64,000 bases of DNA from Treponema sp. (GTDB lineage Bacteria > Spirochaetota > Spirochaetia > Treponematales > Treponemataceae), in the NCBI GenBank assembly GCA_024402635.1, contig JAKSTJ010000004.1:17821-81820 (forward strand), in the 5' to 3' direction. Made by a program: the position numbers and the translations under genes. How positions within the stretch are numbered: position 1 is the stretch's first letter; the number at the start of each line of letters is the position of its first letter. Positions 23,089 to 40,494 of the stretch are shown here, one piece after another. The notes beneath the pieces were generated by a model that ran no database searches, was not told the origin of the DNA, and saw only the letters and a program-made list of their open reading frames with translations.

Positions 23089-23786
23089 ATTTTTTTAAGC
23101 TCCGAAAATTTTACAAAGAATAAAGCCAGAATTCCGGCACAGATTGAAATAATCAGAATATTACTGCTTTCTATAAGATTAAATTTCCACATCAAAATCG
23201 AAATAAAAGTGAAAATGGCACCTGTAAGTGGTGGAATAAAATCCTTTGTTTTCTTTATCTGTTCGATTGTAAGTACTATAAATAATGCAGTAAGTGCAAA
23301 ATCTACTCCGGACAAATCAAATGGAAGTAAAGTTCCCATTATGGCTCCAATTGTACTTCCTGCTATCCAGTAACATTGATCTAATAGAGAAAGAATTCCG
23401 TAAAAGGAATATTTATTCTCGCCTTCTGGAGGATTAATGGTTGTAAGAATTGAATAGGTTTCGTCTGTTAATGCAAAAATTAAATATGGCTTCCACTTTC
23501 CGGAACCTTTGAACTTTGTAATTAATGAAAGACCGTAAACAATATGACGAATGTTTAGTAAAACTTCTGAAATTAAAATTGTTATAACTGGAGTTCCTGC
23601 TGCAAAAAGTCCTACTGCAAGAATCTGTCCTGAACCTGCAAAAATAAAAACTGCAGAGAATGTTGCAAGCCACCATGGAAAACCGCTTCCAGAAGATAAA
23701 ATTCCGTATGCGATTCCTAATGTCAGGTATCCAAACAGTACTGGAATGGAAGCTTTGAATGCTGCCGAAATACATTTTTTTGTCAT
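23085..23786 (-). CDS. azlC: AzlC-family branched-chain amino acid exporter
   Basis: A 233-residue inner-membrane protein with FKASIPVLFGYLTLGIAYGI at the N-terminus, LLNIRHIVYGLSL, and LTDETYSIL, all typical of AzlC. It forms an export system with AzlD. The start lacks a good SD, and a TATAAT lies 9 nt upstream of the ATG, so the 5' UTR may be very short. Confidence 0.9.
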   Translation of the reverse strand: MTKKCISAAFKASIPVLFGYLTLGIAYGILSSGSGFPWWLATFSAVFIFAGSGQILAVGLFAAGTPVITILISEVLLNIRHIVYGLSLITKFKGSGKWKPYLIFALTDETYSILTTINPPEGENKYSFYGILSLLDQCYWIAGSTIGAIMGTLLPFDLSGVDFALTALFIVLTIEQIKKTKDFIPPLTGAIFTFISILMWKFNLIESSNILIISICAGILALFFVKFSELKKI

Positions 23787-23888
23787 AGTTTCAGAATTAT
23801 ATTTTATTTTATGTTTTATGAATACTACCTATTTATTATAGAAAAAAAATACTCAATCTAATTGTAGAAATATGATTTGTGTACTAAA

Positions 23889-26705
23889 ATGTTACTTGTG
23901 AAAGAATCAGTTTTATCCTACGGAACTTTTGTTTCCGGTTCTACAAAGTCAAAGAAAAATATTAAAAACTCTGAAAAAATACACAGTAATCCTGCTGAAA
24001 AATTAGGAATTTTCGAAGAATTACCTGAAGTTTTATCTGAAAAAGCCAGCGTAAATTTGCTTGATAATATTCTAGATGAAATTTCCAGTGAGTATTCAAA
24101 AAAGAATGATGAAAAAATTTCAGAAGAAACTGTGAAGTCTTCTGAAGATAACGTTGAAGTAATTGAAGAAGAGGAAGCTGAAGAAGAAGATCCTTTCCCC
24201 AGAAGCGAAATTCCTTCAATCACAGACATAATGAATGCCGGTGAAGAAAAATCTGCTGAAGAAAATCTGGCACCGGTAGAAAATAATTTTACAGAAGAAA
24301 AACCTTTGTCTGATTCAAAAACTGAAACAACTCCAAAAGAAATTATTGATTTTTCAGAAGAAAATAATTTAACTGAAGAATCTGTTCTGGATTGGGAAGT
24401 TCCATATTATGATGATACGGAAAATCGTGGAAAAAACAAAATTTCTGAAAAAAAATTCATTCCTGCTGAAAAGAAATTAAAAACAGAAGAAATTTCGGTA
24501 AAGCCTGAAAAAATCAAAGAAAAAAAGGAAAAAATAAAAAAAGAAAAATCTGTAAGGGTTAATAAAACTGTTAAAGAAAGTACTGATTCTAAAAAATCCG
24601 AAATTGAAAAAGACAGTAAGAAAATTCAAAAGGTAAAAAGACCAATAGGTTTTGTTTTAATAGCCATTATTTCCATCATTGTTATTGTTTCTCTTGCAAT
24701 GGTTACTGTGATTGTTTCAAAAACTACAACTGACGATACAATCGTAACTGCTGAAACTAACAATCGTACTCAAAATGACCGGGCCGCCAGCGACTGTGAA
24801 TCCCGGCTTTCCAATGTCATTTCTTCTGTTGAAATGTTTTATTATCTTGTTGAATCTTCTGTTAATCAGGAAATTGAAGTTGATTCTACAGCTAAAAGAT
24901 TTTTTGAAGGTAATAAAGATGTTGGCGGAGTTTATTTTATTAATTCCAACAAAAAATTTATTAATTATCAATTTTTTTCAGAAAGAGAAATAAATACCGC
25001 TTTATTTGACAGTTATATTTCACAGGAAGAAGAAATTATTGATTCTTTGGTTCCTGGTGTTTCTCAAATAAATAATACATCTCCATTTTTTGGAACTTCT
25101 TCTCTGATGATTTTCTGTACATTTCAGTCTGGTTCTGTTTCTGAAAAGGCTATTGTGTTTATTTCTTCCGAGAAACTTCAGGAAAATCTTTCAAATAATA
25201 CAATTAATCTTTCCTTCATTGTAAATAATAAAGGTGAAGTTCTTGTTCATCCGGATATTTCGATTATGAAAAATGGTTTAAATTTTTCAAATCATCAGGT
25301 TGTTTCAAGAATGATGGAAAGCGGTTCCTTAAATGAACAGTTTACCTATGTAAATAATGATGAGGAACAGATAATAGGTGCTTATAAAAAAATCTCTGTT
25401 GCAGGTTGTTCTGTAATTACTGAAGTTCATACAGAAATAATTCTTGAAGGTGTAAAAAGTACAATCAGAGGAAATATTTATCTTACAATTGCCATTCTTG
25501 CAATTTCGATTATGGTAATCTGGTTTTTCTCTTCAAGTTTGAGTACCCCTTTAAAAACTTTAACAGCTGTTACTAATGAAATTAATCAGGGAAACTTTAA
25601 TACTGATTTATTTAATGAATTAAGTGACAACAGAAAAGATGAAATCGGCGTTTTAATAAAAAGTACAAAAGCTGAACGAAAAATGCTTAATGCTGTAACT
25701 CGACTTACAAATCCTGCTGTTACAAGAGCAATTGTTCGTGATGAAATTGATATGCTGCCTCATTTTAAGGATATTACTATTTTCTTTAGTGATATTCGTG
25801 GTTTTACAGCAATTTCAGATCAGTTTAATAAACAGTATGGAAAAGATTCTGCAGGTGAAATCATCAGTTTTTTAAATGATTATATGGCAAGAATGGTAAC
25901 CTGTATAACAATAACTGGTGGAACTGTTGATAAATTTGAAGGAGACGCTATTATGGCTGCCTGGGGAGTTCTTCGAAATGATAAACTTGATTTTGAAAAT
26001 CTCCCTGATTCTGATGAAGAAAAATTAAAATTAAAAGCAGAACATGAAGCCCACGTTGTTGAAGATGCATTGAATTCAATAAGAGCAGGAATTGCAATGC
26101 GTTATTCATTGGCAAAATATAATAAAGATGCAGCAGAATATACAAAAAATAATCCTGGAAAATACAAACCGGTAATCAGAATTGGAGCTGGAATAAATAC
26201 TGGCCGTGCAACTGTTGGATTTATGGGTTCCGAAGTTTATAAACTTGAACATTCATCAATTGGTGATGATGTAAATCTTGCTTCAAGAACCGAAAGTTCT
26301 AATAAACTTTGTGGAACTGATATGCTGATTACTCAGAATACTTATGATATTTTGAAATATAAATATATTCGTTGTGAAGAAAATAATTTTACAATTGCAG
26401 AAGAAAATCTTAAAAATGAAATTGTTGTAGAAATGATTCCTGTTGCTTTTGATGTAAAAGGAAAGGGACAGCAGCATTTCTATGGAATTGTAAATATGCC
26501 TGCATTTGATGTTCTGGAATTCTTTAAAGCAGAAAATACAGAATATGCAAATCCTGATTTTAAGGTAGATGAAGATTGTCTTAAAACCGTTGGTCCTGAA
26601 GGTCCAAAAACTCTGAATGAAGTAAGAGATCTTTTAGGAATTCCTGTACCAGATTTTTCTAAGGTAAACCTTAATGAAGAAGAAAACAAAGTCAAGATTA
26701 GCTAG
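23889..26705 (+). CDS. Transmembrane class III adenylate/guanylate cyclase with periplasmic sensor and acidic cytosolic N-terminus
   Basis: About 938 residues. Residues 1-250 are an unusual acidic, Glu/Lys-rich, low-complexity cytosolic region; TM1 about 253-278; a Cache-like periplasmic sensor region about 285-525; TM2 about 530-550; HAMP; then a class III cyclase domain about 610-860. Metal ligands Asp635 (FFSDIRGF) and Asp686 (KFEGDAIMAAWG), the purine-binding Lys682, and VNLASR are present. The position that is Asp in many adenylate cyclases is Ser (HSSIGDD), recalling class IIIb enzymes. The start is uncertain: the ATG is taken, but a TTG lies 12 nt upstream. It overlaps the FecR gene by 32 nt and heads a six-gene surface operon. 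Confidence 0.88.
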   Translation: MLLVKESVLSYGTFVSGSTKSKKNIKNSEKIHSNPAEKLGIFEELPEVLSEKASVNLLDNILDEISSEYSKKNDEKISEETVKSSEDNVEVIEEEEAEEEDPFPRSEIPSITDIMNAGEEKSAEENLAPVENNFTEEKPLSDSKTETTPKEIIDFSEENNLTEESVLDWEVPYYDDTENRGKNKISEKKFIPAEKKLKTEEISVKPEKIKEKKEKIKKEKSVRVNKTVKESTDSKKSEIEKDSKKIQKVKRPIGFVLIAIISIIVIVSLAMVTVIVSKTTTDDTIVTAETNNRTQNDRAASDCESRLSNVISSVEMFYYLVESSVNQEIEVDSTAKRFFEGNKDVGGVYFINSNKKFINYQFFSEREINTALFDSYISQEEEIIDSLVPGVSQINNTSPFFGTSSLMIFCTFQSGSVSEKAIVFISSEKLQENLSNNTINLSFIVNNKGEVLVHPDISIMKNGLNFSNHQVVSRMMESGSLNEQFTYVNNDEEQIIGAYKKISVAGCSVITEVHTEIILEGVKSTIRGNIYLTIAILAISIMVIWFFSSSLSTPLKTLTAVTNEINQGNFNTDLFNELSDNRKDEIGVLIKSTKAERKMLNAVTRLTNPAVTRAIVRDEIDMLPHFKDITIFFSDIRGFTAISDQFNKQYGKDSAGEIISFLNDYMARMVTCITITGGTVDKFEGDAIMAAWGVLRNDKLDFENLPDSDEEKLKLKAEHEAHVVEDALNSIRAGIAMRYSLAKYNKDAAEYTKNNPGKYKPVIRIGAGINTGRATVGFMGSEVYKLEHSSIGDDVNLASRTESSNKLCGTDMLITQNTYDILKYKYIRCEENNFTIAEENLKNEIVVEMIPVAFDVKGKGQQHFYGIVNMPAFDVLEFFKAENTEYANPDFKVDEDCLKTVGPEGPKTLNEVRDLLGIPVPDFSKVNLNEEENKVKIS

Positions 26706-29466
26706 TTTTTTTGTTGTCTCATTATGTCTTTTAGTTTTTGTTTTAAGTATTTTTTTCTTCTGGAAAAACTTAAACAGGGTTACTGTACGCTCTGATATTC
26801 AGGAAATTGGAACAATTCAGTTTAAATATAAAATTGCTCAAAGAAAATTTGTTGATCGTGTAGCCTGGGAACGTTTACAGCAGAATTCTGTTTTATATAA
26901 CGGAGATACAATTCGTACTGCTGATGGGGCCATGGCAAAGCTTTTTATAGACAAAACCACAATTGAAGTTTATGAATCAACAATGATTCAGATTTTCTAC
27001 AACAGCGATACAGGTGTTAATCTTTCTGTTAATTCTGGTGACATTTCCATTGATACAACCTCTGCTGATCGAAGTATAAATGTTAATTTTTCAAATGGTC
27101 AGGCCTTTGTTCTTGAAGCAGGTTCCAAAGTTTCAGTACAGTCTGGAGAGTTAAATAATCTTTCTGTTTTATCCGGAATTGCTTTATTCACTGATGACAA
27201 AGGACTTGTATCAGAAATTTCGGAAGGACAAACTGTAAGAGTAAATGAAGAAGGAAATATTCGGAAAGTTCCTCTTTCAATTACCTCTGTTACTGATAAT
27301 GTAAGACTTTTAACTTTAGATAATTCTCCAAAGAAAGTTCTTTTACAGTGGAGATTAAATGATTCTTCATATTCTCCAGTTGTAGTTGAAACTTATGCAG
27401 ATAAAGATTTTGAAATTCTTGAGAATGTATTTGTTGTAGAAGACAGTAATTCCATAAATATTGATGCTCCTGTAGGTAGATTGTATTGGAAAGCTTATCT
27501 TGAAAATAATAAAAATGATTTTGTGTCTGGAAAAATCTCTGTTGAAAACGCAGATGCGGTTGAACTTGTTTCACCGGCGCCAGAACAGATTTTTACAACA
27601 TCAGCATTAGAATCTTCCGTATATTTTTCATGGAAAGGAAATAATTTTGCTGATTATTATCTTTTTGAATTATCAGAAACTCCAGATTATAGTAATCCAA
27701 TTGTTTCCCAGAAAGTTTATTCAGATTCATACAATTGTTCCAAAATTCAAAAAGGAAACTATTACTGGCGTGTTACACCATTTTATTCAACAAATGACAT
27801 TGGATTGGGAAAATCAACAGACAGTAATTCTTTCAAAATAAATCTGATGGAATATCCTAAAGCTCCGGTTCTTGTTGTTCCTGCAGAAAATTCAACTGTT
27901 ACTCTTTCTGATGATAAATCAAATTTATCTTTTATGTGGAAGAGTTTTGGTGAAAGTTCTGATTACAAGTTAATTGTTGCTTCTGACAGAAGTTTTTCAA
28001 GAATAATACTTGAGGAAGAATCAAATTCCAATAGATTTGAAAAACCATTTAATATTTCCGCTTTATCAGAAGGGGATTACTATTGGAAAGTTGTTTCTAC
28101 AAATGAAAAAGGTGAAGATGGTAAAAATCTTGAATCTGGTATAAGAAAGTTTTCTGTAGTTAAGTTTATTCCGGGAGAAAACAAACTGATTTATCCTCAG
28201 GATAATTTTGCAGTAGAAGGTAAAAACTTACGCAATATTGATTTTAACTGGAAAATTGCAGAAGAAAACAAATTGAATCTTGATTATCTTTATTTACAGA
28301 TTTCAGATAATTCTGGTTTTAGAAATCCTGTAATAAATCAAAAAACAAATGAAAATCATCTTACAAATTTAAAACTTAACAGTGGAAAATACTGGTGGCG
28401 TATTGCTGTTAAAAATTCTGATTCAGATGAGCTGGTTTATTCAAAAGCCAATGTTATTCATATTCTGGAAGATTTGGTTTCTCCTGTAATTACTGCCCCT
28501 GAAGATTCCTTTGTAATAAATAAGGAAAATACGATTCAGATTAAATGGAATAAAGTTTCCGGGGCTGATTATTATAAAATAAAAGTTTTTGATGATACTA
28601 AAGTATATTATGATCAAAAACTAACTGATTTACAGACATCTGTTTCTTTACCATCATCAATTTTTACTGTTGAAAATTCGGTTAATTTAAAATGTTCAGT
28701 GCAAGCCTTTGCTTCCGAAACAGAATTTTCTCAATTACGGTTTACAGATGAATCGGTTAAAAGTTTTACTGTAAATCTTCCATCAAAAATTATTTTAAAA
28801 ACACCTGTAAATGGTTCTACAGTTTCAGGTTTAACTGCTTTGCGAAACTCTGTGAAATTTGAATGGTCTGGCAGTGAAAATGCAAAAGAAATTCAGTTTA
28901 TCTTAAAAAGAATGCAGCCTTCTGGAACAATGCAAACTGTAAAGACTGTAGATAATCCAGGTAATTCAGTTTCAATTTCAGAGCTTAGAGCAGGAAATTA
29001 TGAATGGACTGTAAAAGGTCTATCGAATGGAAATATTAATATTGATTCAGATCAAACTTTTGCATTTACAATAACTCCTGTACCAGAACTGGCAGGGGCA
29101 AGACTTGTTTCTCCAGCTCCAGAGCAAATTATTGATGGAAATTATTTAATTGAAAATCAATCAGTAAGTTTCAAATGGAAAACTGTTGCAAATGCTACAG
29201 ATTATACTTTTGTTTTATATCAGAAAAATGAAGACGGCAGATTAAGAAAAATTGTTTCTACGAATACAAGAAAAACGGAATATAAAATTACAGATTTAAC
29301 TGTTCTTGATGTAGGTGATTTTGAATGGCACGTTACGGCTTATGTTCATAATTCTTCTGGAGAACAGCAGCAAAAAAGTAGAGATGCAATCGGCAGATTT
29401 AAAATTCAATTTGATATGCCGGATTCAGTAAATACAAAAGATCCTGGTGCTTTATACGGAGAATAG
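26674..29466 (+). CDS. FecR-domain protein with repeated fibronectin-III-like modules
   Basis: A 930-residue membrane-anchored protein. TM at about 10-30, a FecR domain about 55-190 (NGDTIRTADGAMAKLFIDKTTIEVYESTMI, split here as NGDTIRTADGAMAKL and IEVYESTMI), then about six beta-sandwich repeats of ~100 residues. Each repeat ends with a Y.W.V-type strand: YYWRVTPF, YYWKVVST, YWWRIAVK, YEWTVKGL, FEWHVTAY. The long repeat rod probably spans the periplasm. The start ATG overlaps the cyclase end by 32 nt, with AAGG 9 nt upstream. FecR proteins usually sense or relay envelope signals; no ECF sigma factor is nearby, so a link to the cyclase is inferred. Confidence 0.85.
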   Translation: MKKKTKSRLASFFVVSLCLLVFVLSIFFFWKNLNRVTVRSDIQEIGTIQFKYKIAQRKFVDRVAWERLQQNSVLYNGDTIRTADGAMAKLFIDKTTIEVYESTMIQIFYNSDTGVNLSVNSGDISIDTTSADRSINVNFSNGQAFVLEAGSKVSVQSGELNNLSVLSGIALFTDDKGLVSEISEGQTVRVNEEGNIRKVPLSITSVTDNVRLLTLDNSPKKVLLQWRLNDSSYSPVVVETYADKDFEILENVFVVEDSNSINIDAPVGRLYWKAYLENNKNDFVSGKISVENADAVELVSPAPEQIFTTSALESSVYFSWKGNNFADYYLFELSETPDYSNPIVSQKVYSDSYNCSKIQKGNYYWRVTPFYSTNDIGLGKSTDSNSFKINLMEYPKAPVLVVPAENSTVTLSDDKSNLSFMWKSFGESSDYKLIVASDRSFSRIILEEESNSNRFEKPFNISALSEGDYYWKVVSTNEKGEDGKNLESGIRKFSVVKFIPGENKLIYPQDNFAVEGKNLRNIDFNWKIAEENKLNLDYLYLQISDNSGFRNPVINQKTNENHLTNLKLNSGKYWWRIAVKNSDSDELVYSKANVIHILEDLVSPVITAPEDSFVINKENTIQIKWNKVSGADYYKIKVFDDTKVYYDQKLTDLQTSVSLPSSIFTVENSVNLKCSVQAFASETEFSQLRFTDESVKSFTVNLPSKIILKTPVNGSTVSGLTALRNSVKFEWSGSENAKEIQFILKRMQPSGTMQTVKTVDNPGNSVSISELRAGNYEWTVKGLSNGNINIDSDQTFAFTITPVPELAGARLVSPAPEQIIDGNYLIENQSVSFKWKTVANATDYTFVLYQKNEDGRLRKIVSTNTRKTEYKITDLTVLDVGDFEWHVTAYVHNSSGEQQQKSRDAIGRFKIQFDMPDSVNTKDPGALYGE

Positions 29467-29472
29467 GGCTGA

Positions 29473-31080
29473 TTGAAAAATTTTAATACAAAAACAGTCA
29501 TTTTAATTTTTCTCATTTTCTTATGCAATTTATCGCTTTTTGCAGAAAGTCCTAAATTTGTTCAAAGGCTTGAATGGAGTGAATCAAAGAATTCTGTAAA
29601 TTATAAAGTTGAAATTCAATCTGTTGAAAATACTATTGAACCTGTTTTCTTTGTTACAAAAAATACTTACATTGAATTCTCTTTACCATCTGGTTTTTAT
29701 AAATACAGAGTTTATGTATATGATTTTCTTGGAAGAGAAAGAAATGTTTCATCATGGCATGAATTTGAAATTAAAAAAGCTGTAATGCCGGAAGTTGTAT
29801 CAGTTCAGGAAAAGGTTGAAGTTTCTGATGATGATAATCAGATTTCCATTCCAGTAAATGTTAAGGAAGTAAATTCTGAGTCAAAAGTTGTTCTTGTTAA
29901 TACAAATACAGGAGAAGAAATAGAAGGTCAGCTTAATATTGCAGATGAAGATTCAAAAAAATATTCAGAAGCATTTATAGCTCATTTTCCTAAGGTTGAA
30001 ACTGGAAACTGGAAATTAAAAATTACAAATCCTGGTGGACTTACTACAGAATCTATTCAACTGGAAATTGCAAATAAAATTGAAAAAGAATCTGAAGAAC
30101 CTGAAAAAATCGCAGAAGTAACAGAACCTGAAGAAGAAAAATCTGACGATTCTGAAAAGATTGCAGAAGTTACAGAACCTGAAGAAAATAAAACTGAAGA
30201 ACCAGAAAAAATCGCAGACGTAGCAGAACCTGAAGAAGAAAAATCTGACGATTCTGAAAAGATTGCAGAAGTAACAGAACCTGAAGAAGATAAAACTGAA
30301 GAACCAGAAAAGATTGTAGAAATAACAGAACCAGAAGAAGAAAAATCTGACGATTCTGAAAAGATTGCAGAAGTAACAGAATCTGTCGAAGATAAAACTG
30401 AAGAACCAGAAAAGATTGCAGACGTAGCAGAACCTGAAGAAGATAAAACTGAAGAACCAGAAAAGATTGTAGAAGTTACAGAACCTGAAGAAGAAAAATC
30501 TGACGATTCTGAAAAAATCGCAGAAGTAACAGAACCTGAAGAGAAGAAACCTTATGATCCTCTCGGATTTAGTTTTAATTTTGGTGGAGCTTATTCTTTC
30601 CTTCTGCCATTACAGGAAATAAGTCTGGCAGATTATGCAGATGAACCAACTTATAGTTTAGGATTTTCATTTGCCTATGTTCCTGCCAGAAATAAAAAAC
30701 TTGATTTTGGTTTTGAGCTAAGTGCTTATGTAACAAATATTACAACAAGTACAAGTTCTGTTTTTGTTTTTATGCCTTTAAGTACAATTGATTTAAGTTT
30801 AATTACAAAATTACAGCTTGTTGATGATAAATTAGCATTAAACTTGAAAACAGGTGGTGGTGTAACTTTACTCTTTACTTCTTATAAAAATAATTTATCA
30901 ACAGATCCATCTGTAGATAAAATGTACGGTTACTTAAACGGAATGGCAGGTTTATCTTTAAGCTGGACACCATCTAAATTTGTTCAACTTGAAACTGGAG
31001 CAAATGCATATTTTGATTTTATTACTAATAAATTTACTATTGCAATAAATCCTTACATGGCAATTGGAGTGAGGTTTTAG
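29473..31080 (+). CDS. Outer-membrane beta-barrel protein with a 17-residue acidic repeat stalk
   Basis: A 535-residue exported protein. Signal peptide 1-25 (IFLCNLSLFAES), two beta-sandwich-like segments to about 200, then nine tandem 17-residue repeats (about 211-363) of type EKIAEVTEPEEEKSDDS, then a C-terminal beta-barrel of about 170 residues ending in Phe (IGVRF), the usual barrel-assembly signal. The acidic repeats likely form an extended periplasmic linker. The start is TTG (29473); AGGG sits 4 nt before it and no ATG is available. It lies 6 nt after the FecR gene and directly abuts the next gene. Confidence 0.8.
   Translation: MKNFNTKTVILIFLIFLCNLSLFAESPKFVQRLEWSESKNSVNYKVEIQSVENTIEPVFFVTKNTYIEFSLPSGFYKYRVYVYDFLGRERNVSSWHEFEIKKAVMPEVVSVQEKVEVSDDDNQISIPVNVKEVNSESKVVLVNTNTGEEIEGQLNIADEDSKKYSEAFIAHFPKVETGNWKLKITNPGGLTTESIQLEIANKIEKESEEPEKIAEVTEPEEEKSDDSEKIAEVTEPEENKTEEPEKIADVAEPEEEKSDDSEKIAEVTEPEEDKTEEPEKIVEITEPEEEKSDDSEKIAEVTESVEDKTEEPEKIADVAEPEEDKTEEPEKIVEVTEPEEEKSDDSEKIAEVTEPEEKKPYDPLGFSFNFGGAYSFLLPLQEISLADYADEPTYSLGFSFAYVPARNKKLDFGFELSAYVTNITTSTSSVFVFMPLSTIDLSLITKLQLVDDKLALNLKTGGGVTLLFTSYKNNLSTDPSVDKMYGYLNGMAGLSLSWTPSKFVQLETGANAYFDFITNKFTIAINPYMAIGVRF
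30103..30561 (+). repeat. Nine tandem 51-bp in-frame repeats (17 residues each)
   Basis: Units alternate between endings SDDS and TEEP, so a 102-bp higher-order unit is visible, broken once where two TEEP units adjoin (units 6-7). Each unit begins with EKI. High nucleotide identity between units suggests recent slippage or unequal exchange and possible length variation between strains. Confidence 0.92.
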
Positions 31081-32655
31081 ATGAAAAGAAGCAAATATTC
31101 TATTTTTTCTATTTTATTACTTTCTCTAACGTTTATAATGGCCTCTTGTGATTTCAACTGGTTTGGAGATTTTAGTTCTGATTTAGATGATAAAGTTTTT
31201 TCAACAATATTATTTAAATCTTCAAATTCTGTAGATGATTACAGATCCTTTGAAAAAAAATATAAAAACGGAATTACAATTTATTCAAATGATTTACCAG
31301 ATGAAAATTATCAGGGAGTAATAAATCTAAAACCGGGTTATACCTTTGTAAAATGGAATTCAACAGATTCAAGTCACGTATTTTTTGATGAATTTAATAA
31401 TATTTCAACTATTGTTACTGGACCTGAAAGTTCTATTATTGAACTTTATGCAGAATGGGAAGTTTCAGCAAATACTCCTTATAGTGTTCATTATCATTTT
31501 CAGGATTTAACAGAAGATAGAACAGGTGTTGAATCAACCTATACCTATGATTCCTCTTTTGACCTGATTTTACATGGACAAACAGAAGATTATACAAATG
31601 TTACCCAAACTATTGATGTTCCTGGATTTGAATGTAAAACAATAGAACAGAAAATAATTAAAGGGGATGGTTCTACCGTTGTTGATGTTTATCTTGATAG
31701 AAAACAAATAGAAATTTTCTTTGATATTAATGGAACTATTAATTCTACTTTGAATTATTTTGGAACAGAAATTACAGTACCAACCTATAATCTTGAAACT
31801 GGTTATGAAATTGGAGGATGGATAGATTCTTCTGGAAATGAACTTTTCTATTTACCATACACACCATCATCTTCAGAAACATTTACAGCAAAAATTATTG
31901 AATTAAGAATTGGATATAAAGTTCGTCATTATATTCAGAGTTTACAAGATGAAAATGATTATACTTTATTAAAAGAAGAAGAAAAAACTGGTTTACTTGG
32001 TACTCAAACTTCTGCTGAATTTGATAGTCCAGAAGGATTTGAACCAAAAGATTCTACTATTACTCAAATTACAATCTCTGTTGATGAAGACCAGAATATT
32101 GTAGAAATTTATTACAACCGTAAATCTTATACAGTTATTATTGATATGCAACCGGGTGTTACAGGAGATCTTTCTGACAGTCAGCCTTCTTGGACAGTTA
32201 AATATGGTACAAAAATAAATGAAATTGATATGCCTTCTATGGCTCCTGAAGGTTTTGCTCTTAAAGGTTATAGCACTTCTAAATCAGCTGATGACCTTAT
32301 CAGTTATCCTTTTGAAGTTAAAGATAATATTACTTTATATGCAATCTGGACAAAAATGAATGCTTTATCAGTTTCTATTACAAATCCGGTTTATGAAAGT
32401 GATATTGCTGCTAATCTGATTAATCTTTCTGCTTCAAAAACAGGAAATACAATTAAATTTACAGCAAATGAAAATCCTTCAATAACAAAATATATTTGGT
32501 ACATTAATGGTTCGCCTGTAGCAGGCAATTCAAGTTCTTCTGAATATATTATTGGAAATGAAATTGGAACCTTTGAAATAGTACTTATTGTTATTTATAA
32601 TGGCGAATCTTATGCTGCAACCATAAATGTTACAATTGAAAAGGGAGATTTATAA
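31081..32655 (+). CDS. Lipoprotein with InlB/MucBP-like beta repeats
   Basis: A 524-residue lipoprotein; lipobox-like TFIMASC. It has repeated segments typical of bacterial surface adhesins: KPGYTFVKWNSTDSS and GFALKGYSTSKSAD..PF..KDNITLYAIW are Listeria-Bacteroides (InlB B-type) repeats, and two segments beginning YSVHYHFQDL and YKVRHYIQSL resemble MucBP modules. The C-terminal ~90 residues look like an Ig-type or PKD-type domain. The ATG directly follows the stop of the barrel gene. Probably surface exposed and adhesive; ligand unknown. Confidence 0.8.
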   Translation: MKRSKYSIFSILLLSLTFIMASCDFNWFGDFSSDLDDKVFSTILFKSSNSVDDYRSFEKKYKNGITIYSNDLPDENYQGVINLKPGYTFVKWNSTDSSHVFFDEFNNISTIVTGPESSIIELYAEWEVSANTPYSVHYHFQDLTEDRTGVESTYTYDSSFDLILHGQTEDYTNVTQTIDVPGFECKTIEQKIIKGDGSTVVDVYLDRKQIEIFFDINGTINSTLNYFGTEITVPTYNLETGYEIGGWIDSSGNELFYLPYTPSSSETFTAKIIELRIGYKVRHYIQSLQDENDYTLLKEEEKTGLLGTQTSAEFDSPEGFEPKDSTITQITISVDEDQNIVEIYYNRKSYTVIIDMQPGVTGDLSDSQPSWTVKYGTKINEIDMPSMAPEGFALKGYSTSKSADDLISYPFEVKDNITLYAIWTKMNALSVSITNPVYESDIAANLINLSASKTGNTIKFTANENPSITKYIWYINGSPVAGNSSSSEYIIGNEIGTFEIVLIVIYNGESYAATINVTIEKGDL

Positions 32656-35372
32656 TGAATAAAAAAATATTTTTCTTTGTTTTATCTATAATCTCATGTT
32701 TATTTTTTGTAAATTGTAAAAATATAGAAGCAGGAATTTATTCTGATAAAGCAATTGTTCGTTTTTCAGTTGAATCTTCTTCTGCACGTGCAGTCATTGG
32801 AGATTCATCCATTACAACTTCAAGGCCAGATGAATATGCTAAAACAGATTTTAAATACATACTGACTTACTGTAAAAACCAGGACTGGACAAATGCAGAA
32901 GTAATTAATTGTGAAAATTATACAGCTCTTTCCAATCAGGCTATTGAACTTCAACAGGGAACCTGGTCGTTTAAGATTTCAGCTCTGGTAAATTGGGAAA
33001 ATGAGTCTGGGGAAGTTACTGATGAAATAATTGCAGAAGCACAGGTTTTAGACAAAGAAATTACTGGAAATGAAAATATCAGTTTTAATTTAGAATTAAA
33101 GTCTGATTCTGAAAAAAATGGTTTTCTCAGACTAAGTATTTATTATAGTGATGAATACTGTAATGACTGTACTTTAAATTTCTATGATATTTCTGGAATG
33201 GAATTGACTGAATTAAGACAGACAACTAGTCCTAATCCAATTTCTTCTCCAGTAACATTAGAAAAATATTTAAAACCTGGTACATATATTATAAAAATAT
33301 CTTTTTCATATAACAATAAAATTATCTCAAAAATAGTTTTTGCTAAAATTTTAGCTAATCATAAAACTCAAATTACAAAAAATTATGGAACAGTTTTCTC
33401 AAATCACAATGTTTATAAAATAAACTATCTGGATTTAAATAGTGATTCTTATTCTGGTTCACAAATTGCTGATTCCGAAAAATATATTGCCGAAAATGAA
33501 AAGCTAACTTTACCTTCTCCAACAAAAACTTCTATTGGAACAAATACTTTTGTTTTTGATGGATGGTATGTTTTTGATTCACAAATCATGGAATATAAAA
33601 ATCTTACTAATACATTTTTAGACGGAGCATCAGTTTCCGAAGATTTGACTTTATATGCAAAATGGAATTCAAAATTTGTATATCTTGATTGTGACGAAGG
33701 AGATGATGCAAATGATGGATTTTCTCCGGTTACAGCAGTAAAAACTGTAAGTGCTGCAAAGAAAAGGTTGAATAACAGCAGGTCGGAAGCAATTTATGTT
33801 ATGAGTAGTATTTCTTCAACTGAGGATATCAATGAATTAAGTAATATTACTTCATTGGAATACAATAATACATGTATAAAACGTTACGAGAATTATACCA
33901 CTGGCTCCCTTATTTATGTAGACAGTGATTGTTCTATAGAAAATCTTGTAATTGACGGAAATAGTGTAGCTTCTACATCATGCGCAATTTATCATAATTC
34001 TGGTTCCTTAAACTTAAATTCTGTAGAGATTCAAAATAACAGCGCTCTTTCATGTGGCGGTATTATTACTCGTTCAAACCTTTCTTTAAATGATGTTGTA
34101 TTTACTTCAAATGAGAATTATGACATACAGCTTTATCCAAATAATAATCCTATAAGTTTTGAAACTAACGATTATTCAAAGAAAATTAAACTGGATATTG
34201 CTACATATCCAGATGATGTTTCTGATGTTGCAGTTTTGAATTTCCGTTCAACTGATAATAATGATTATCGAAAAAATGTTATTTCTGTATTTGAATTGAA
34301 TCCAGCTCCAGATTCAACAGTTTATGAAATCGGATTAGATGGTCATCTCATAAATCCAAATATTTCAGGTGGTGGTTCAATAATTCTTCCAGAAAATAAA
34401 AACATTATATTTAAAGCTTCCGAATCAGAATTTACAGTTCCTGAAGAATCTAAACTTGTTACAATTACTGCCTATGAAGATTCTCTGTCAAATAATATTA
34501 CAGATGATATTTCCAGCTGGAGTATTAAAGTTTATTCTGGTGGAAAAGATATATCATCAGAATTTACGATTACAGATAATAAAGTTACATTCCCGGCACA
34601 TATTGCTCCTGGTACTTATCAGCTGGTTATTAATGTGGAATATGACGTTTTAAATTATGTTTCTTCTATATATGTATTTGTAGATTTAGATTCTTCTAGT
34701 GGAAATGAGACATCTGAAGAAAATGAATTTAATTTTTCAGAACTGAATTATTTAAGCAGTGATGAATCTGAATTTATTGCACTTTTAACAGATATTAAGA
34801 ATAAAGGATACGATAGTATTACATTAAAAATTACTGGTGAAGAAAGTTTTTATGATGATAATCAAACTTTAGCAGGTATGATGCGTTGTATTGGTAGTCA
34901 AGGAATAAAAACAACCAGACTTAATTTAGCATTTGCAGATTCTTCAAAATGTACAGTTTTAATGAACTCCTTAGCTGGTTCAGATGGTTCTTCTTCTAAA
35001 TTGATTCTTGATTTTAAAAACTCAAATATTACAGACTTCGGTGAAACCATTAATTTTAAGTATAGAAATAATATTTCTGACGTAATTCTTCCTGATAATC
35101 TGGAAAAAATACCTCAGCAATTTCTGGCAGGAGCAAGAGGAATGGATTCTATTACAATTCCTGCTTCTGTAAAAGAAATTGGAATTATGGCTTTCCAGAA
35201 TTCGGAATTCAAGGAAATTATTTTTGAGGATTCTCTTTCTGTCTGGTCAGTTTATTTTGATATGCTAGATTTACCAAGTAATGATAATGTCACTGTTAGT
35301 GATAAAGAATTGAATGTGGAAAACTTTTCAATTACATATGCTAATTGTAAATGGGTAAAAAATAATGACTAA
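32655..35372 (+). CDS. Large lipoprotein with InlB-type repeat, parallel beta-helix and leucine-rich-repeat regions
   Basis: A 905-residue protein with a lipoprotein-like signal (FFVNC). In order: a beta-rich N-terminal region; one InlB B-type repeat ending SEDLTLYAKWNS (about 320-338); a DUF1565/pectate-lyase-like helix start (DCDEGDDANDGFSPVTAVKT, about 343-362); Ig-like region about 600-690; C-terminal BspA-type leucine-rich repeats (NISDVILPDNLEKIP, MDSITIPASVKEIG, FKEIIFEDS). Overlaps the preceding stop by 1 nt and the next start by 8 nt. A surface adhesin or glycan-binding role is inferred. Confidence 0.78.
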   Translation: MNKKIFFFVLSIISCLFFVNCKNIEAGIYSDKAIVRFSVESSSARAVIGDSSITTSRPDEYAKTDFKYILTYCKNQDWTNAEVINCENYTALSNQAIELQQGTWSFKISALVNWENESGEVTDEIIAEAQVLDKEITGNENISFNLELKSDSEKNGFLRLSIYYSDEYCNDCTLNFYDISGMELTELRQTTSPNPISSPVTLEKYLKPGTYIIKISFSYNNKIISKIVFAKILANHKTQITKNYGTVFSNHNVYKINYLDLNSDSYSGSQIADSEKYIAENEKLTLPSPTKTSIGTNTFVFDGWYVFDSQIMEYKNLTNTFLDGASVSEDLTLYAKWNSKFVYLDCDEGDDANDGFSPVTAVKTVSAAKKRLNNSRSEAIYVMSSISSTEDINELSNITSLEYNNTCIKRYENYTTGSLIYVDSDCSIENLVIDGNSVASTSCAIYHNSGSLNLNSVEIQNNSALSCGGIITRSNLSLNDVVFTSNENYDIQLYPNNNPISFETNDYSKKIKLDIATYPDDVSDVAVLNFRSTDNNDYRKNVISVFELNPAPDSTVYEIGLDGHLINPNISGGGSIILPENKNIIFKASESEFTVPEESKLVTITAYEDSLSNNITDDISSWSIKVYSGGKDISSEFTITDNKVTFPAHIAPGTYQLVINVEYDVLNYVSSIYVFVDLDSSSGNETSEENEFNFSELNYLSSDESEFIALLTDIKNKGYDSITLKITGEESFYDDNQTLAGMMRCIGSQGIKTTRLNLAFADSSKCTVLMNSLAGSDGSSSKLILDFKNSNITDFGETINFKYRNNISDVILPDNLEKIPQQFLAGARGMDSITIPASVKEIGIMAFQNSEFKEIIFEDSLSVWSVYFDMLDLPSNDNVTVSDKELNVENFSITYANCKWVKNND

Positions 35373-38300
35373 AAAGACTGTTTTTTTAATTTTATTAATA
35401 TCTTCCTTATTTATTTCCTGTTCCAGCATTTTTTCACCAAAGAAAAAAATATCTTTAGCAGATGAAATTGTAATAAGCGGAAAACTATCTTCTATTTATA
35501 CTGATTCTTCTCAAAAACAAAACAACCGTTCTGCCTATCCTGAGACAACAGGAATAGATCTTTTCTATAAATTACAGGCTGTAGATTCAGATAATGAAGA
35601 GGATGTTGTTAATGCTGTAATTTCTGATAACAATTTCACAATTGCCCTTAAGAATGGAAAGATCTGGAATTTAACTGCAATCTGTTATTATCACGATGAT
35701 GTTTATGATACAGATGTTGAAGTTCTTAAAACTACAAAAGAACTGGATTTAACAGAGTCTCCTGCTTCAATTAATAATTTAGAATTGCCTTTAGATGAAA
35801 TCGTTTCTGGGCCTTCTTGCATTGGACAGATAAAGCTTCCTGTTTCAGTTGAGTCAAATCTTATAAAAAAATGTGTTATTAAATATAAAGAAAGTAATGT
35901 TTCTGATTATGATCCTTACGATGTTACAACACTGGATTTTAGTGCTGATAAAAATCAAAGTTTTATAATGCAGAATACTTGTGGTCTTCATGATTTAGAG
36001 CTTCGTTTTTATATGAACGATTCGGCAGGAAATGAAGTTCTTTGTTTTTCTATTAATGAATCAGTTTGTGTTTTAAATGGACTTGTAACTGAAAAATGGA
36101 ATTCTTCTCAAAGTGAATACATCAAAAATAATGCAATTTATATTACTGATTTATTAGTCCAGCAATTTAAATCAAAATATTTTTATGTTTCTGATACTGG
36201 TGATGATACAAATGGTGGAACTTTTCAAACTCCTTTTAAAACCTTACAAAAAGCCGCAAATGTAATTGAAGCAGTTAATGATGGGACTTCAGTTTACAAT
36301 ATTTTTATTATATCAGATATATCAGCTTCAAATTTAGATTTTGAATTTGCCGCAAATAATCAAAGCTTAGCTGATTTTAATCCAGTTGATAAGGATTTGA
36401 AAATAAATATAAGTTCATATCCTGCTTCTGCAACTTATAATATTGAATTAAATGGTAGAGGCCGTGCTTTTAGTTTTAACAATCGTGTTTTTTCAACTAT
36501 AAGCAGATTAAATTTTAATAATGGTGACAGTGATGCCGGTGTTATATATTCAAAAGCAAAATCACTTTCAATAAAAAATTGTATATTCTCTGATAGTTAT
36601 TCAATTAATTGTGGCGGGGCTATTGATGCTTCGGAAGATTGTAAAGTTGTTTGTGAATCTGTAACATTTTCGAAAAATGACTCTGCAAATTATGGAGCTG
36701 ATATATCCTTAAGAGATAAAGCTTCTCTTGAATTAAAAAAATGTATTTTTATTCCTTCAGATAGAGTTAATTATGGTCAGATAATTAGTGGAATTCCTAG
36801 AGGAAATATAAATCAGCAGGGAACTGACGGTCAAATTATTTTTGATTCAGAAAATACATTTAAAGGTTCAATATATACTGAAAATCCTATTATTTTAAAA
36901 AATAATTTAGGAACAGATTTTCTTTCTGTGGTTTATTTGCCCTCTACTTCAGATAAGAGTGTTTATTTTGGAAATAATGTTCAGTTATTAAAGAATTCAG
37001 GTGCAACAGATTATGTAAGTACAGAGTTTTCAAAGTTTTTATTTAATCAAACAGGCTATGTAATAGATTCAACAGGTCTTATTAAACAGAAAGGTTATAT
37101 TTTTACATCTTCCTTAGCAGATTTAAGTGGAGCACCTGCAGAAAATGCTGTATATTCAATTTCTACTCCAGAAGAAATGAAAAAACTTTCTGAAATTACT
37201 AACTCATATTCCTGTGAGAATTCTACATTTGTTCTTACTGAAAATATTGATTTATTTGATATTTCTCCATTTTCTCCAATTGGTAAAGTTAAACAATTCA
37301 AAGGAATATTTGATGGTAATAATAAATTAATTACAAATCTAAATGTTGTTGAAACAACTGAATATGCAGGTCTTTTTGCAAGAACTTCCGATGCAATTAT
37401 TAAAAATGTAAAATTAAACGGTTCTGTTACCGGTACAGCATCAACAGGTGGTCTGGTAGGAAACTTAAATTATTATAAAAATGATGATGTATATTGTATT
37501 GAAAATTGTATAGTAAATGTAACTGTAACCTCTACATCTGGAACATCTGTAGGTGGAATAATTGGAAAATGTTCAAATAATAAATATGTAAAAATTATAA
37601 ATTGTATAAATCTTGGTTCTGTTTCTTGTACTTCCGGCAATGTTGGAGGTATAGAAGGAACTGGCAATGGTAAGATTATAAATAGTGCAAATCTTGGAGA
37701 TGTTTTATCCGGAACCTCTGCAATAGGAGGAATTTTTGGAGGTGGAGCAATAGAATCAGATAACTGCTATTCTTCAGCTCATTTCAATACAGGAGTTACT
37801 ATAACAGGTGGCTTTGGAGGAACAACTGGTAGTGAAAGTATTTTTAGTAATGATTATTTCTTTGAACAAGAAATAGCTTATCCTTTATGTAATTCACAGA
37901 ATAGTTCTGCAATAAATAAATTGCAGACTGCAGAGTCTTCTTCTCTTGGTAGTAAATTAAATTCCAGTCTGCAGCAAGGTTATAAGGAATGGTTATATTC
38001 ATATTCTAAAGAAGGTGTTGATTATCCTGTCTGTTTAGAAATTCCACCAGAATTGCTGATTATTAAACCAGTAGTATCAGCCCCTGAAGATTCGGTTTTA
38101 TATCTTATTCAAAAAGGACTGTCTCCAGAAGTTGGTACAACTTATTCAATAAGTTCAAAAGAAGAATTAATCCAGATTGCATCCTGGGTAAATGATGGAA
38201 ATGATTTGGCAAATGTTACATTCAGCCAGACTGAGACAATTACTCTTGTAGATGAATTTATCCCAATTGGAAATTCTGCAACAAGATCTTTTAAAGGTTC

Positions 38301-40158
38301 TTATCATGGAAATAATAAATCTATTACTGGATTAAATGTAAATTTGGGAAGCAATACCAATGGAGGTTTATTCGGCTATACAGACGGAGCCTATATTGAA
38401 AATCTTTATGTAGAAGGTTCTGTAGAAGCAGGTGGGTGGACTGGTGGAATTGTTGGTTATGCTGATGGTTATACCTTAATTACAGAATGTGTTTCAAATG
38501 TTAATATTACAGGAAACGGTACTGGTATTGGTGGAATTGTTGGTTATTCAAATGATAGTTATGTTCAAAAATCTGTAAATATTGGTTCTGTAAATTGCAA
38601 TAACACTACTTCATCTCAAATAGGAGGAATTATTGGTGCAGGAAATGATTCAACTATAGTTGAATATTGCGTTAATTTTGGAAACATTCATGGAAATGCT
38701 AATATAGGTGGTATTATTGGTTTTGCAACTGATGCAAATTTTACAATTAGTGATTCCTACAATGCTGGTAAAATTACGGCTAATAATTCTCAAAAATGTG
38801 GCTCAATTTATGGAAAAAAAGATTTTGATAATAATGCCATTCAAAATTGCTATAGTATAAAACAAAGCTGCAGTCAGGAAATATCAGAAAATACATCAGG
38901 TTCCTTTGCTGATGAAATTGTAAAAGTCGTAACATTAAATGAACTGCAAACTGAATTAACAGATTCTAACTGGCTGGATAATTTTCATTCTTATCCAGTA
39001 CCTGTAAGTTTTATTCCTTTATCAATTGATTTACCATTTACTCCATCTGTTCAGAATGGAAATCATATGGTTCTTGATGAAAGTTATAAATCTGTAAGTT
39101 CATTTAATTCTTCTATTCCTGTTAGTGGTGATAAAGTAAAAATATCTTCTGATGCAGATTTTTCAACATTATTAAAATGGTCCTATGATTCAAATACAAA
39201 ACAAACTAATAGTCTTGAAGGTGTGAAAATCGTTCTGAATGGATCTATAGATATGAAGAATGTTACTTATTATGTAGGTCCTGGTGTTAATAACAATGCC
39301 ACAACTTATGATTCTTCTGCATTTAAAGGGGAATTTGATGGGAATGGATATATTATCGAGAATGTTGTTTTAGGTACTGCTGGTAGTGGCTGGCATGGTT
39401 GTGGCATTATTGGTGTAGCAGGAGAAGGTGCAGTTATAAAAAACATACATTTAAAAAATGTTAAATTATATGAACCTATTACAAAATGTGGTGGAATTGT
39501 CGGTTATGTTAAAGGACAAAATGTTCTTATAGAAAATTGTATCGTAGAAGATATTGATTTTGATTTAAATGCAAAAGCCAGAGGTGGTGGAATTGTAGGC
39601 TTTGTTGAACAAGGAGCTTCTGTTACTGTAAGAAACTGTATTACAACAGGCTCTATAAAAGGTCAAAGTGGCCTTGGAGGAATTGTTGGTGGAGATCAAA
39701 ATACCAGTGGAACAATTGTTATAGAAAATTCTGCCAGTTATTGTTCAATAGAAAATACAAACGGTATTACTGGTGGAATTGTTGCAAAAACATCTGACAG
39801 TTCTTCAAAAATTTATAATTGTTTCTTTGGAGGTAAAATTACAAGAACTTCAGGCAGTGGTCAGCTTGGACCAATTGCAAATGTTTTATATGGAAGTTCT
39901 TCTGAGGTTAATAATTATAAAAATTTATTTTATGAAGAAAATTGGATGGATGCTCAAAACGCTAATACAACTTTCACGCAGACAGTTCCTACAGGAGTTT
40001 CAATTCTTCCTTATAAAATAACAGAAGGAAAGTATATAATTAATTCAATAGGTAATGATGTTATGGAAGTTTTAAATTCCTGGGTAGATGAAAAAAATCT
40101 TACTGGCGGAAACTATAAATCATGGATCTATAAGGAAGGTAAACTTCTTTTTGAATAA
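35365..40158 (+). CDS. Giant lipoprotein with beta-helix and many GLUG motifs
   Basis: A 1597-residue protein, the largest in the window. Lipoprotein-like signal SLFISC; N-terminal domain to about 270; helix-type start YVSDTGDDTNGGTFQTPFK with SIKNCIFSDS rungs; from about 690 to 1480 at least a dozen GLUG-type motifs (GGLVGN, GGIIGK, GGLFGY, GGIVGY several times, GGIIGF, GGIVGF), often alternating with IENC or VEYC strands. The GLUG region recurs in three blocks, each introduced by a GNNK- or GNGY-containing segment, suggesting internal duplication. GLUG motifs are known in bacterial surface adhesins; function is otherwise unknown. Last gene of the 16-kb operon; no terminator was seen after it. 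Confidence 0.8.
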   Translation: MTKKTVFLILLISSLFISCSSIFSPKKKISLADEIVISGKLSSIYTDSSQKQNNRSAYPETTGIDLFYKLQAVDSDNEEDVVNAVISDNNFTIALKNGKIWNLTAICYYHDDVYDTDVEVLKTTKELDLTESPASINNLELPLDEIVSGPSCIGQIKLPVSVESNLIKKCVIKYKESNVSDYDPYDVTTLDFSADKNQSFIMQNTCGLHDLELRFYMNDSAGNEVLCFSINESVCVLNGLVTEKWNSSQSEYIKNNAIYITDLLVQQFKSKYFYVSDTGDDTNGGTFQTPFKTLQKAANVIEAVNDGTSVYNIFIISDISASNLDFEFAANNQSLADFNPVDKDLKINISSYPASATYNIELNGRGRAFSFNNRVFSTISRLNFNNGDSDAGVIYSKAKSLSIKNCIFSDSYSINCGGAIDASEDCKVVCESVTFSKNDSANYGADISLRDKASLELKKCIFIPSDRVNYGQIISGIPRGNINQQGTDGQIIFDSENTFKGSIYTENPIILKNNLGTDFLSVVYLPSTSDKSVYFGNNVQLLKNSGATDYVSTEFSKFLFNQTGYVIDSTGLIKQKGYIFTSSLADLSGAPAENAVYSISTPEEMKKLSEITNSYSCENSTFVLTENIDLFDISPFSPIGKVKQFKGIFDGNNKLITNLNVVETTEYAGLFARTSDAIIKNVKLNGSVTGTASTGGLVGNLNYYKNDDVYCIENCIVNVTVTSTSGTSVGGIIGKCSNNKYVKIINCINLGSVSCTSGNVGGIEGTGNGKIINSANLGDVLSGTSAIGGIFGGGAIESDNCYSSAHFNTGVTITGGFGGTTGSESIFSNDYFFEQEIAYPLCNSQNSSAINKLQTAESSSLGSKLNSSLQQGYKEWLYSYSKEGVDYPVCLEIPPELLIIKPVVSAPEDSVLYLIQKGLSPEVGTTYSISSKEELIQIASWVNDGNDLANVTFSQTETITLVDEFIPIGNSATRSFKGSYHGNNKSITGLNVNLGSNTNGGLFGYTDGAYIENLYVEGSVEAGGWTGGIVGYADGYTLITECVSNVNITGNGTGIGGIVGYSNDSYVQKSVNIGSVNCNNTTSSQIGGIIGAGNDSTIVEYCVNFGNIHGNANIGGIIGFATDANFTISDSYNAGKITANNSQKCGSIYGKKDFDNNAIQNCYSIKQSCSQEISENTSGSFADEIVKVVTLNELQTELTDSNWLDNFHSYPVPVSFIPLSIDLPFTPSVQNGNHMVLDESYKSVSSFNSSIPVSGDKVKISSDADFSTLLKWSYDSNTKQTNSLEGVKIVLNGSIDMKNVTYYVGPGVNNNATTYDSSAFKGEFDGNGYIIENVVLGTAGSGWHGCGIIGVAGEGAVIKNIHLKNVKLYEPITKCGGIVGYVKGQNVLIENCIVEDIDFDLNAKARGGGIVGFVEQGASVTVRNCITTGSIKGQSGLGGIVGGDQNTSGTIVIENSASYCSIENTNGITGGIVAKTSDSSSKIYNCFFGGKITRTSGSGQLGPIANVLYGSSSEVNNYKNLFYEENWMDAQNANTTFTQTVPTGVSILPYKITEGKYIINSIGNDVMEVLNSWVDEKNLTGGNYKSWIYKEGKLLFE

Positions 40159-40233
40159 AGATACCTTGCTTTTGAAATAGTTTTATATTATTCTGATATA
40201 TAGAATAATTTATATTTAAATTTGGAGAAAATT

Positions 40234-40458
40234 ATGATTTCTATTATTCTTGGATTAGTGTTTATCGCATTTACAGTTGTTGCTTGTCTTCCAATGTGTC
40301 TTGGCTGGGGCTGGGATGTTGTACAGTTCTTAAAAGGATCGTTGCCTGTTTTAGCTGCTTTTATTGGTTTAATTTGTATTTTTATTGGAATTGCAGATTT
40401 GAAAGATAAAAAGGAAGCTAAAAAAGAAGAAGCTTCAAGTGCTGCAGAAAACAAATAA
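40234..40458 (+). CDS. Small two-helix membrane protein, unknown function
   Basis: A 74-residue protein with two hydrophobic segments (about 1-20 and 28-52) around a GWGWDVV turn, then a Lys/Glu-rich tail ending in SSAAENK. The ATG at 40234 is selected over an in-frame TTG at 40222 because GGAG (40224-40227) lies 6 nt upstream of it. It stands alone between the giant lipoprotein gene and the rplM promoter. No family was recognised. Confidence 0.65.
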   Translation: MISIILGLVFIAFTVVACLPMCLGWGWDVVQFLKGSLPVLAAFIGLICIFIGIADLKDKKEAKKEEASSAAENK

Positions 40459-40494
40459 TATAGAAGAAATTCCTTTTCAGGGGTAGGTAAGTAA

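Follow-up and report, generated by a model that had tools for sequence, protein, structure and literature searches.

FecA-FecR-FecI systems are known to have a FecR domain that stands between a barrel of the outer membrane and an output at the inner membrane. A set of adjoining genes for a class III nucleotide cyclase, a FecR-domain rod protein and a predicted outer-membrane barrel protein is described here from Treponema sp. (assembly GCA_024402635.1, contig JAKSTJ010000004.1, positions 17,821 to 81,820 of the forward strand; this whole stretch of 64,000 nucleotides (nt) is termed the window). It differs from FecA-FecR-FecI in having a cyclase instead of a sigma factor as output, a barrel of 8 strands, and no cytoplasmic anti-sigma part. 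Closer relatives exist. In Sinorhizobium meliloti the genes nsrA and cyaK are presumably adjacent. NsrA, an outer-membrane barrel of this bacterium, is needed for the cyclic AMP (cAMP) response via the cyclase CyaK (PMC7529298, PMC13001267). So far as the available sections of these papers go, the NsrA-CyaK-Clr system resembles the spirochaete module in combining an outer-membrane beta-barrel with an inner-membrane class III cyclase, the module's barrel gene lying beside or near its cyclase gene; however, CyaK has CHASE2 where the spirochaete cyclase has a Cache-like/HAMP layout, and NsrA is a single protein whose barrel part lies at residues 600-1200; those sections describe no separate FecR rod. 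In Campylobacterota an adenylate cyclase gene clusters with that of a FecR-domain outer-membrane protein, and the authors propose one pathway (PMC9239204); as presented in the accessible part of that report, the cluster also includes a phosphodiesterase and a TPR protein, CHASE2 is present, and the FecR domain belongs to the outer-membrane protein, not to a rod in the inner membrane. The BiofilmReg operon of Burkholderia places a FecR-domain periplasmic protein with a membrane sensor (PMC5192318), and the portion of the paper at hand lists LysM-FecR, a CHASE2 histidine kinase and a response regulator, and describes no barrel.

By analogy, the combination of an outer-membrane protein, a FecR domain and a class III cyclase is thus a known kind of system, since NsrA-CyaK and the Campylobacterota cluster have been published, and the statement in a preliminary description of this DNA that no such system had been described was too strong with respect to the portions of those papers cited. 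The spirochaete form is set apart by a HAMP plus Cache-like sensor without CHASE2, a separate inner-membrane FecR rod, a repeat-type adapter on an 8-stranded barrel, and lipoprotein add-ons. No description of the spirochaete cyclase-FecR-barrel module was found in the parts of the open-access literature that were available. The three genes in the window are as follows.

23889-26705, plus strand: cyclase gene (938 amino acids, aa), open reading frame (ORF) called from an ATG start, with a PF00211 match
26674-26705, plus strand: 32-nt overlap of the cyclase and FecR genes, with a Shine-Dalgarno-like AAGGTAA immediately 5′ of the FecR ATG
26674-29466, plus strand: FecR gene (930 aa), encoding an N-terminal transmembrane (TM) anchor, a FecR domain and seven Ig/Fn3-like rod repeats
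29473-31080, plus strand: barrel gene (535 aa), its N-terminal part related to the LIC11435 family

The conserved unit is formed by these three genes, not by the six that had been proposed as an operon. Conservation was followed in the best 80 of 156 loci, picked by a FecR motif (the named loci). One of these, L090, has cyclase pieces and a barrel ORF, with the FecR ORF hidden by a longer opposite-strand ORF, and was set aside. In all 79 remaining loci a cyclase ORF lies directly upstream of FecR, five of them having a partial cyclase ORF (L077, L099, L118, L133 and L142). The barrel follows FecR in 77 of the 79, as a separate ORF in 76 and fused in L118; it is missing from L109, which lies at a contig edge, and from L150, which has none. 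Twenty whole genomes were also used, hand-chosen, mostly in few contigs, and many of them overlapping the other samples, so that they are not an independent sample. These have 208 PF00211 matches and, in 19 genomes, 25 strong FecR ORFs (E <=1e-49, from 45 rows; the second piece of one ORF in G307 and 19 weaker rows were dropped, three dropped rows matching the FecR-domain part alone and probably representing other FecR proteins). Each of the 25 has a PF00211 match on the same strand within about 330 bases upstream, coordinates being compared by eye.

The same order is found far from Treponema. Forty stretches from outside the family were taken, 39 picked by a LIC11435 match, mostly with a FecR match nearby, and L197 by FecR alone. 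A FecR ORF is present in 39 (that of L205 is lost as in L090, hidden by a longer ORF on the other strand), with a cyclase upstream in 36, a barrel downstream in 37, and complete triads in 35. The gene after the barrel in these triads is on the opposite strand in 24, on the same strand in 10 and cut by a contig edge in one; ahead of the cyclase the neighbouring gene is on the opposite strand in 20, on the same strand in 14 and at a contig edge in one. The cyclase-FecR-barrel order is thus old in the phylum, often forms a stand-alone triad, and reaches the most distant spirochaete families sampled. Thus conservation of the cyclase-FecR order in relatives, set beforehand as a test of the preliminary description, was found in 79 of 79 named loci, 36 of 39 loci outside the family and 25 of 25 ORFs from the chosen genomes, and the proposed six-gene unit holds for its first three genes; the other three, lipoprotein genes LP1-LP3, are a variable add-on in Treponema-type loci. 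FecR relatives occur in 90 of 118 genomes of the same family (single-sequence search), and in a phylum sample of 296 genomes 176 have a FecR-profile match and 125 a LIC11435-family match. A protein search with a distant FecR returned 39 matches and, among the few named ones, no strong relative outside the phylum; its named full-length matches are from Spirochaetes/Spirochaetota, and one weak partial match is from Anaeromyxobacteraceae.

The junctions are conserved as well. The cyclase-FecR overlap is 35 nt in 33 and 38 nt in 24 of 75 named loci, with a single frame relation kept in 73 of the 75; FecR and barrel genes overlap by exactly 11 nt in 42 of 74 loci. In most of seven junctions printed, an AGGTA-type stretch within the Lys-Val-Asn codons of the cyclase precedes the FecR start, and the barrel ATG sits within the terminal Tyr-Gly codons of FecR (TATGG); the window has TAC at that place and its barrel starts with TTG at 29473. 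From their sequences the overlaps look like translational coupling. Trees of 72 module sets give path-length correlations of 0.72 for cyclase-FecR, 0.85 for FecR-barrel and 0.73 for cyclase-barrel, and among 19 modules of two-copy genomes the nearest set is identical in all three trees for 11. Very probably the cyclase, FecR and barrel act as one functional unit. The domains from which a mechanism may be read are these.

23889-24650, plus strand: long cytoplasmic N-terminal extension of the cyclase, before the first TM
25524-25664, plus strand: HAMP domain of the cyclase, residues 546-592 (23.9 bits, curated cut-off 25)
25761-26384, plus strand: class III cyclase catalytic domain, residues 625-832 (PF00211)
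26905-27177, plus strand: FecR domain PF04773, residues 78-168 (Pfam)
27286-29424, plus strand: seven homologous rod repeats of FecR, residues 205-917 (profile comparison)
29554-30078, plus strand: periplasmic adapter of the barrel protein, two Ig-like domains, residues 28-202 (31-201 in the AlphaFold model), the first homologous to the FecR repeats
30082-30542, plus strand: acidic linker of the barrel protein, a 51-bp tandem repeat in about 9 copies (repeat analysis; disordered at 205-360 in the AlphaFold model)
30556-31077, plus strand: predicted 8-stranded outer-membrane barrel of OmpA/NspA/OmpW fold, residues 362-535 (strands at 366-534 in the AlphaFold model)

The window cyclase has, in order, the N-terminal extension, a TM, a periplasmic region, a second TM, HAMP and the class III cyclase domain, which scores 52 bits against PF00211 (cut-off 21.9). 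An in-frame TTG at 23877 lies 5′ of its ATG at 23889, and the extension, long here, exceeds 60 residues in 25 of 76 named cyclases. In 37 aligned cyclases PF00211 is matched in 37, HAMP in 36 and dCache_1 in 15; of ten cyclases taken outside the family, each matches PF00211 and HAMP, and eight match dCache_1 below the Pfam cut-off. CHASE2 had no match at E 0.01 in either set. Residues D635, K682, D686, N796 and R800 are invariant in all 37 aligned cyclases; at position 789 the window has Ser and the other 36 have Thr. These positions are taken to hold the two metal Asp, the transition-state Asn and Arg, and a Lys with a Thr/Asp partner that we assign as adenine-type; class IIIb adenylyl cyclases are recognized by their Lys/Thr pair. 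The D/K/D residues are kept in 75 of the 79 named cyclases and gapped in three; outside the family, 35 of 36 cyclases keep the catalytic set. The best matches among solved structures are CyaB (3r5g), a phytochrome-cyclase chain (6fht) and the adenylate cyclase 1wc1. Because of the Lys/Thr pair, cAMP is the likely product, so that of the two messengers suggested in the preliminary description, cAMP or cGMP, the conserved catalytic residues favour the first.

The FecR domain scores 26.2 against PF04773 in the window protein and 48.7 in that of a T. pallidum-like genome (cut-off 24). The seven rod repeats detect each other at 79-99% probability in profile comparisons. Important is that the first domain of the barrel protein detects FecR repeats R2, R3, R5, R6 and R7 at 94-96%, with R1 at 57-87% and R4 at 67-77%, and in the same comparison has no match to the FecR domain or to the barrel. 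Counted without matches shorter than 35 residues, five repeats are present in 32 of the 39 FecR proteins that lie outside the family, seven in the window, four in the T. pallidum-like protein and 16 in the 1914-aa protein of L063; the barrel protein has one rod-type repeat in 35 of 38. The simplest reading is that the rod continues domain by domain into the barrel protein, and end-to-end docking fits because the barrel protein opens with one more repeat of the FecR rod family. The PDB sequence search with the FecR profile gave no match at E 0.01. It should be noted that FecR proteins of 1914 aa are encoded at L063:7543-13287, L135:8480-14224 and L138:10001-15745, the last probably the same locus as L063, and that in L063 cyclase and barrel genes still flank FecR despite the 16 repeats.

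The acidic linker of the barrel protein has a net charge of -51 across 157 aa, which together with the eight modelled strands bears out the barrel with an acidic stalk that had been proposed. A homologue of 97% identity, P0122, has a linker shorter by two 17-aa units, so stalk length probably varies between strains. The protein matches NF047756 (LIC11435 family) over residues 33-216 with 47.9 bits and E 8.4e-13, the cut-off of 380 not being reached, and on this score it is a relative of the family and not a member by cut-off; none of the 296 phylum-sample genomes has a match that passes this cut-off. The PDB sequence search with the barrel profile gave weak titin and GhpA matches only, and a protein search for barrel homologues gave four matches, one being the window itself. 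The barrel shares the 8-stranded fold of OmpA. OmpA also has a C-terminal peptidoglycan-binding domain; that domain has no counterpart in the window protein, which ends at the last strand in the AlphaFold model.

Together these features point, with somewhat better than even likelihood, to one envelope-spanning sensor that turns an outer-membrane event into cAMP. The OmpA-like barrel would be in the outer membrane, and FecR would be anchored in the inner membrane, with its FecR domain next to the membrane and its rod directed outward. The barrel adapter would dock on the rod tip, a trans-envelope bridge that we regard as moderately probable. Binding or strain at the barrel would move the rod, which would act on the cyclase at its periplasmic region and HAMP domain, and the cAMP formed could work via Crp-like and other cyclic nucleotide (cNMP)-binding proteins. 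In Treponema the add-on lipoproteins, here LP1-LP3, are possibly the part that meets the outside. Seven cNMP-binding matches, spread over five ORFs, were found in the window's own genome, which is 78% complete; one of them is accompanied by a weak Crp-type helix-turn-helix (HTH) below cut-off, another is joined to a BrkB-like membrane part and a third to a HATPase. The T. pallidum-like genome has five such matches; they fall in four ORFs, of which one carries a Crp-type HTH that exceeds the cut-off. Fusions of the cNMP-binding domain with HATPase_c_2 or with a BrkB-like membrane protein are encoded at L219:508-1845, L218:1378-2694 and L226:550-1887, the HATPase form being common to both genomes. 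Judged by their domains, these fusions are possible unusual cAMP effectors. Nothing was found that points to glycans, the sensing of which had been suggested.

Several observations weigh against such a sensor. A FecR-profile match is missing in 8 of 49 same-family genomes and weak in two more, 120 of the 296 phylum-sample genomes are without one, and in a class sample of 60 genomes the Treponema barrel profile has a match in 14 and none in 46; the module is thus common but dispensable. Exceptions to the order are L214 (FecR and barrel without cyclase), L197 (FecR alone), L150 with its lacking barrel, and two copies in the window's own genome in which the barrel-type gene comes first. The window cyclase has no dCache_1 or other Cache match in Pfam, and dCache_1 matches are below the Pfam cut-off wherever scores were inspected. 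Catalytic residues are altered in the named locus L143 and in the distant L208. The surface loops of the modelled barrel are short. A two-mismatch search of the window for CRP-type sites gave 19 where 39 are expected by chance, that is, no excess. Shared descent alone may explain the agreement of the trees. Apparent fusions (L062, cyclase-FecR; L118 and L059, FecR-barrel, of the same species; P0036) were considered as proof of contact and rejected: a single insertion or deletion in or near the overlap suffices for each, so that they carry no weight. The L118 cyclase comes in two pieces; P0001, a FecR relative with 95% identity to L062, is unfused; and P0036 seems, by eye, to be out of frame at the junction.

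A shared operon with separate action is the alternative that survives best, although we think it rather unlikely. The cyclase would sense a small periplasmic ligand, for which a Cache-like plus HAMP layout is sufficient, while FecR and barrel would form a passive tether or envelope spacer; a tether could well be built from rods and an OmpA-fold barrel, and the rod length depends on the lineage, with mostly 5 and up to 16 repeats. A tether alone leaves unexplained the near-constant presence of a cyclase upstream of strong FecR ORFs and the overlap of 35 or 38 nt in 57 of 75 loci.

To our knowledge, how spirochaetes sense the host or their own envelope is largely open, and a triad that extends from rumen Treponema to the T. 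pallidum-like genome is a concrete candidate for this role. In the latter genome (G020) the triad has a Borrelia_P83 gene upstream and a barrel protein of 374 aa counted from its MSII start, which is the length implied for Tp0483 in the consulted part of one report (PMC10118025); TP0484 is annotated as FecR in another, likewise available in part (PMC4403809), and the FecR-domain protein of G020 fits this. By these sequence features, namely 374 aa, FecR next door and the P83/100 gene upstream, the genes are almost surely Tp0483-Tp0486, with the barrel as Tp0483 and FecR as Tp0484. The P83/100 gene (PF05262, L060:10970-12565) overlaps the cyclase gene by 4 nt, and because of this overlap the antigen may belong to the same operon.

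Tp0483 has been published as a fibronectin- and laminin-binding antigen of disputed outer-membrane location, with a fibronectin-blocking peptide at residues 316-333, according to the portions of that work available; a partly accessible study counts TP0483 among genes that recombine and mentions it together with outer-membrane proteins (PMC6685089). In a low-identity alignment the fibronectin-blocking peptide maps to window residues 477-498; provided that both barrel ends lie in the periplasm, these would form surface loop 3 and strand 6 of the model. The passages of the published descriptions of Tp0483 and Tp0484 at hand give no link to a cyclase, whereas here both adjoin one, and it is the single PF00211 match of that small genome. 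Thus the only class III cyclase match falls in the same gene run as Tp0483, and the module offers a signalling role for a long-known antigen. A more specific picture, offered tentatively and in our view doubtful, is a cAMP receptor that bridges the whole envelope with a rigid rod divided between two proteins, in which like Ig domains plug the barrel into FecR and the FecR rod in turn presses on the cyclase; Tp0483 would then be the outer end of the syphilis spirochaete's only class III cyclase, and contact with host matrix would set cAMP.

Binding of fibronectin and laminin, as given in those portions, speaks against a second alternative, in which the module senses the envelope from inside: without any external ligand, rod and barrel would register how far apart the membranes lie or how strained they are, as might result from periplasmic flagella or from defects of the outer membrane. 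Also unfavourable to it are the large predicted lipoproteins often added in Treponema operons and an own-genome copy with a leucine-rich repeat (LRR) domain on a barrel-type protein. Short modelled surface loops, lineage differences in rod length, and the 24 of 35 triads outside the family with no same-strand gene after the barrel count in its favour, and we give it about one chance in five. In the window the add-on lipoproteins are encoded as follows.

31081-32655, plus strand: LP1, predicted lipoprotein with InlB/List-Bact repeats, variable add-on (Pfam, own lipobox pattern)
32655-35372, plus strand: LP2, predicted lipoprotein with BspA-type LRR_5, variable add-on (Pfam, own lipobox pattern)
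35365-40158, plus strand: LP3, predicted lipoprotein of 1597 aa without a Pfam family, variable add-on (own lipobox pattern)

All three proteins meet our own lipobox pattern. They had been called InlB/LRR/GLUG lipoproteins: Pfam supports Flg_new (the InlB/Listeria-Bacteroides repeat) in LP1 and LRR_5 with a weak Flg_new in LP2, while neither Pfam nor NCBIfam supports GLUG in LP3, for which no Pfam family was matched. A tightly linked gene (gap <60 nt) beyond the barrel is present in 45 of 69 named loci and absent from 24. By the same pattern the first such gene encodes a predicted lipoprotein in 28 of the 45, against 31 of 403 other ORFs. Sixteen downstream proteins scanned have InlB-type repeats, LRR_5, beta-helix, FGE-sulfatase, or none of these. 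With phmmer at E 1e-5 in the named loci, LP1 has four relatives and LP3 one, all as the first gene after the barrel, and LP2 has none; blastp gave partial LP2 matches in other loci. By these comparisons LP1-LP3 are a variable, lineage-specific add-on. Large predicted lipoproteins with a C-terminal FGE-sulfatase (formylglycine-generating enzyme-like) domain follow triads at L078:15579-19904, L100:14219-18304 and L149:13350-16925.

The excess of lipoprotein genes behind the barrel, together with a copy on contig C48 of the own genome that joins the adapter to LRR_5, would suit a role of FecR and barrel in export or surface anchoring of the downstream lipoproteins, the cyclase reporting their state. 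This is improbable: an 8-stranded barrel has no wide pore, 24 of 69 named loci are without a tightly linked gene behind the barrel, and the next gene is on the other strand in 24 of 35 complete triads outside the family. Least tenable, and very nearly negligible in probability, is a FecA-FecR-FecI type system with FecR as anti-sigma factor, the barrel as its transducer and the cyclase as bystander, since the FecR domain that suggests it is preceded by a cytoplasmic part of only about 10 residues before the TM, which leaves no room for an anti-sigma domain, a scan of ten window neighbours found no sigma factor (ECF included), and the modelled barrel is 8-stranded with an Ig-like adapter, not a TonB-dependent receptor.

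Six PF00211 matches are present in the own genome, and four adjoin FecR matches. In the C48 copy a 1027-aa protein (L075:12206-15286, minus strand) encoded upstream of the cyclase has a barrel-type adapter and LRR_5, and so links LRR proteins to the module; its barrel-like stretch was seen by eye only, the barrel profile giving no match. The barrel-type gene comes first in this copy and likewise in the C115 copy (L074:3-1022).

In the window itself the preliminary description of six plus-strand ORFs with overlaps of 32 nt to 1 nt, gaps of at most 6 nt and no terminator agrees with the ORF coordinates (-32, +6, 0, -1 and -8 nt in order) and with a terminator scan of 23600-41000, in which six terminator-like sites were observed against 6.2 (sd 2.5) in shuffled sequences, as by chance, and none in the junctions. 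A promoter scan gave 89 matches against 87 by chance, i.e., no excess. The locus is flanked upstream by divergent azlCD and ABC transporter genes and downstream by rplM and rpsI. One or other flank is present again in the relatives L036 and L038-L041, which identifies these as the orthologous locus. Between LP3 and rplM, a small unlisted ORF with a hydrophobic start was seen by eye at 40233-40459.

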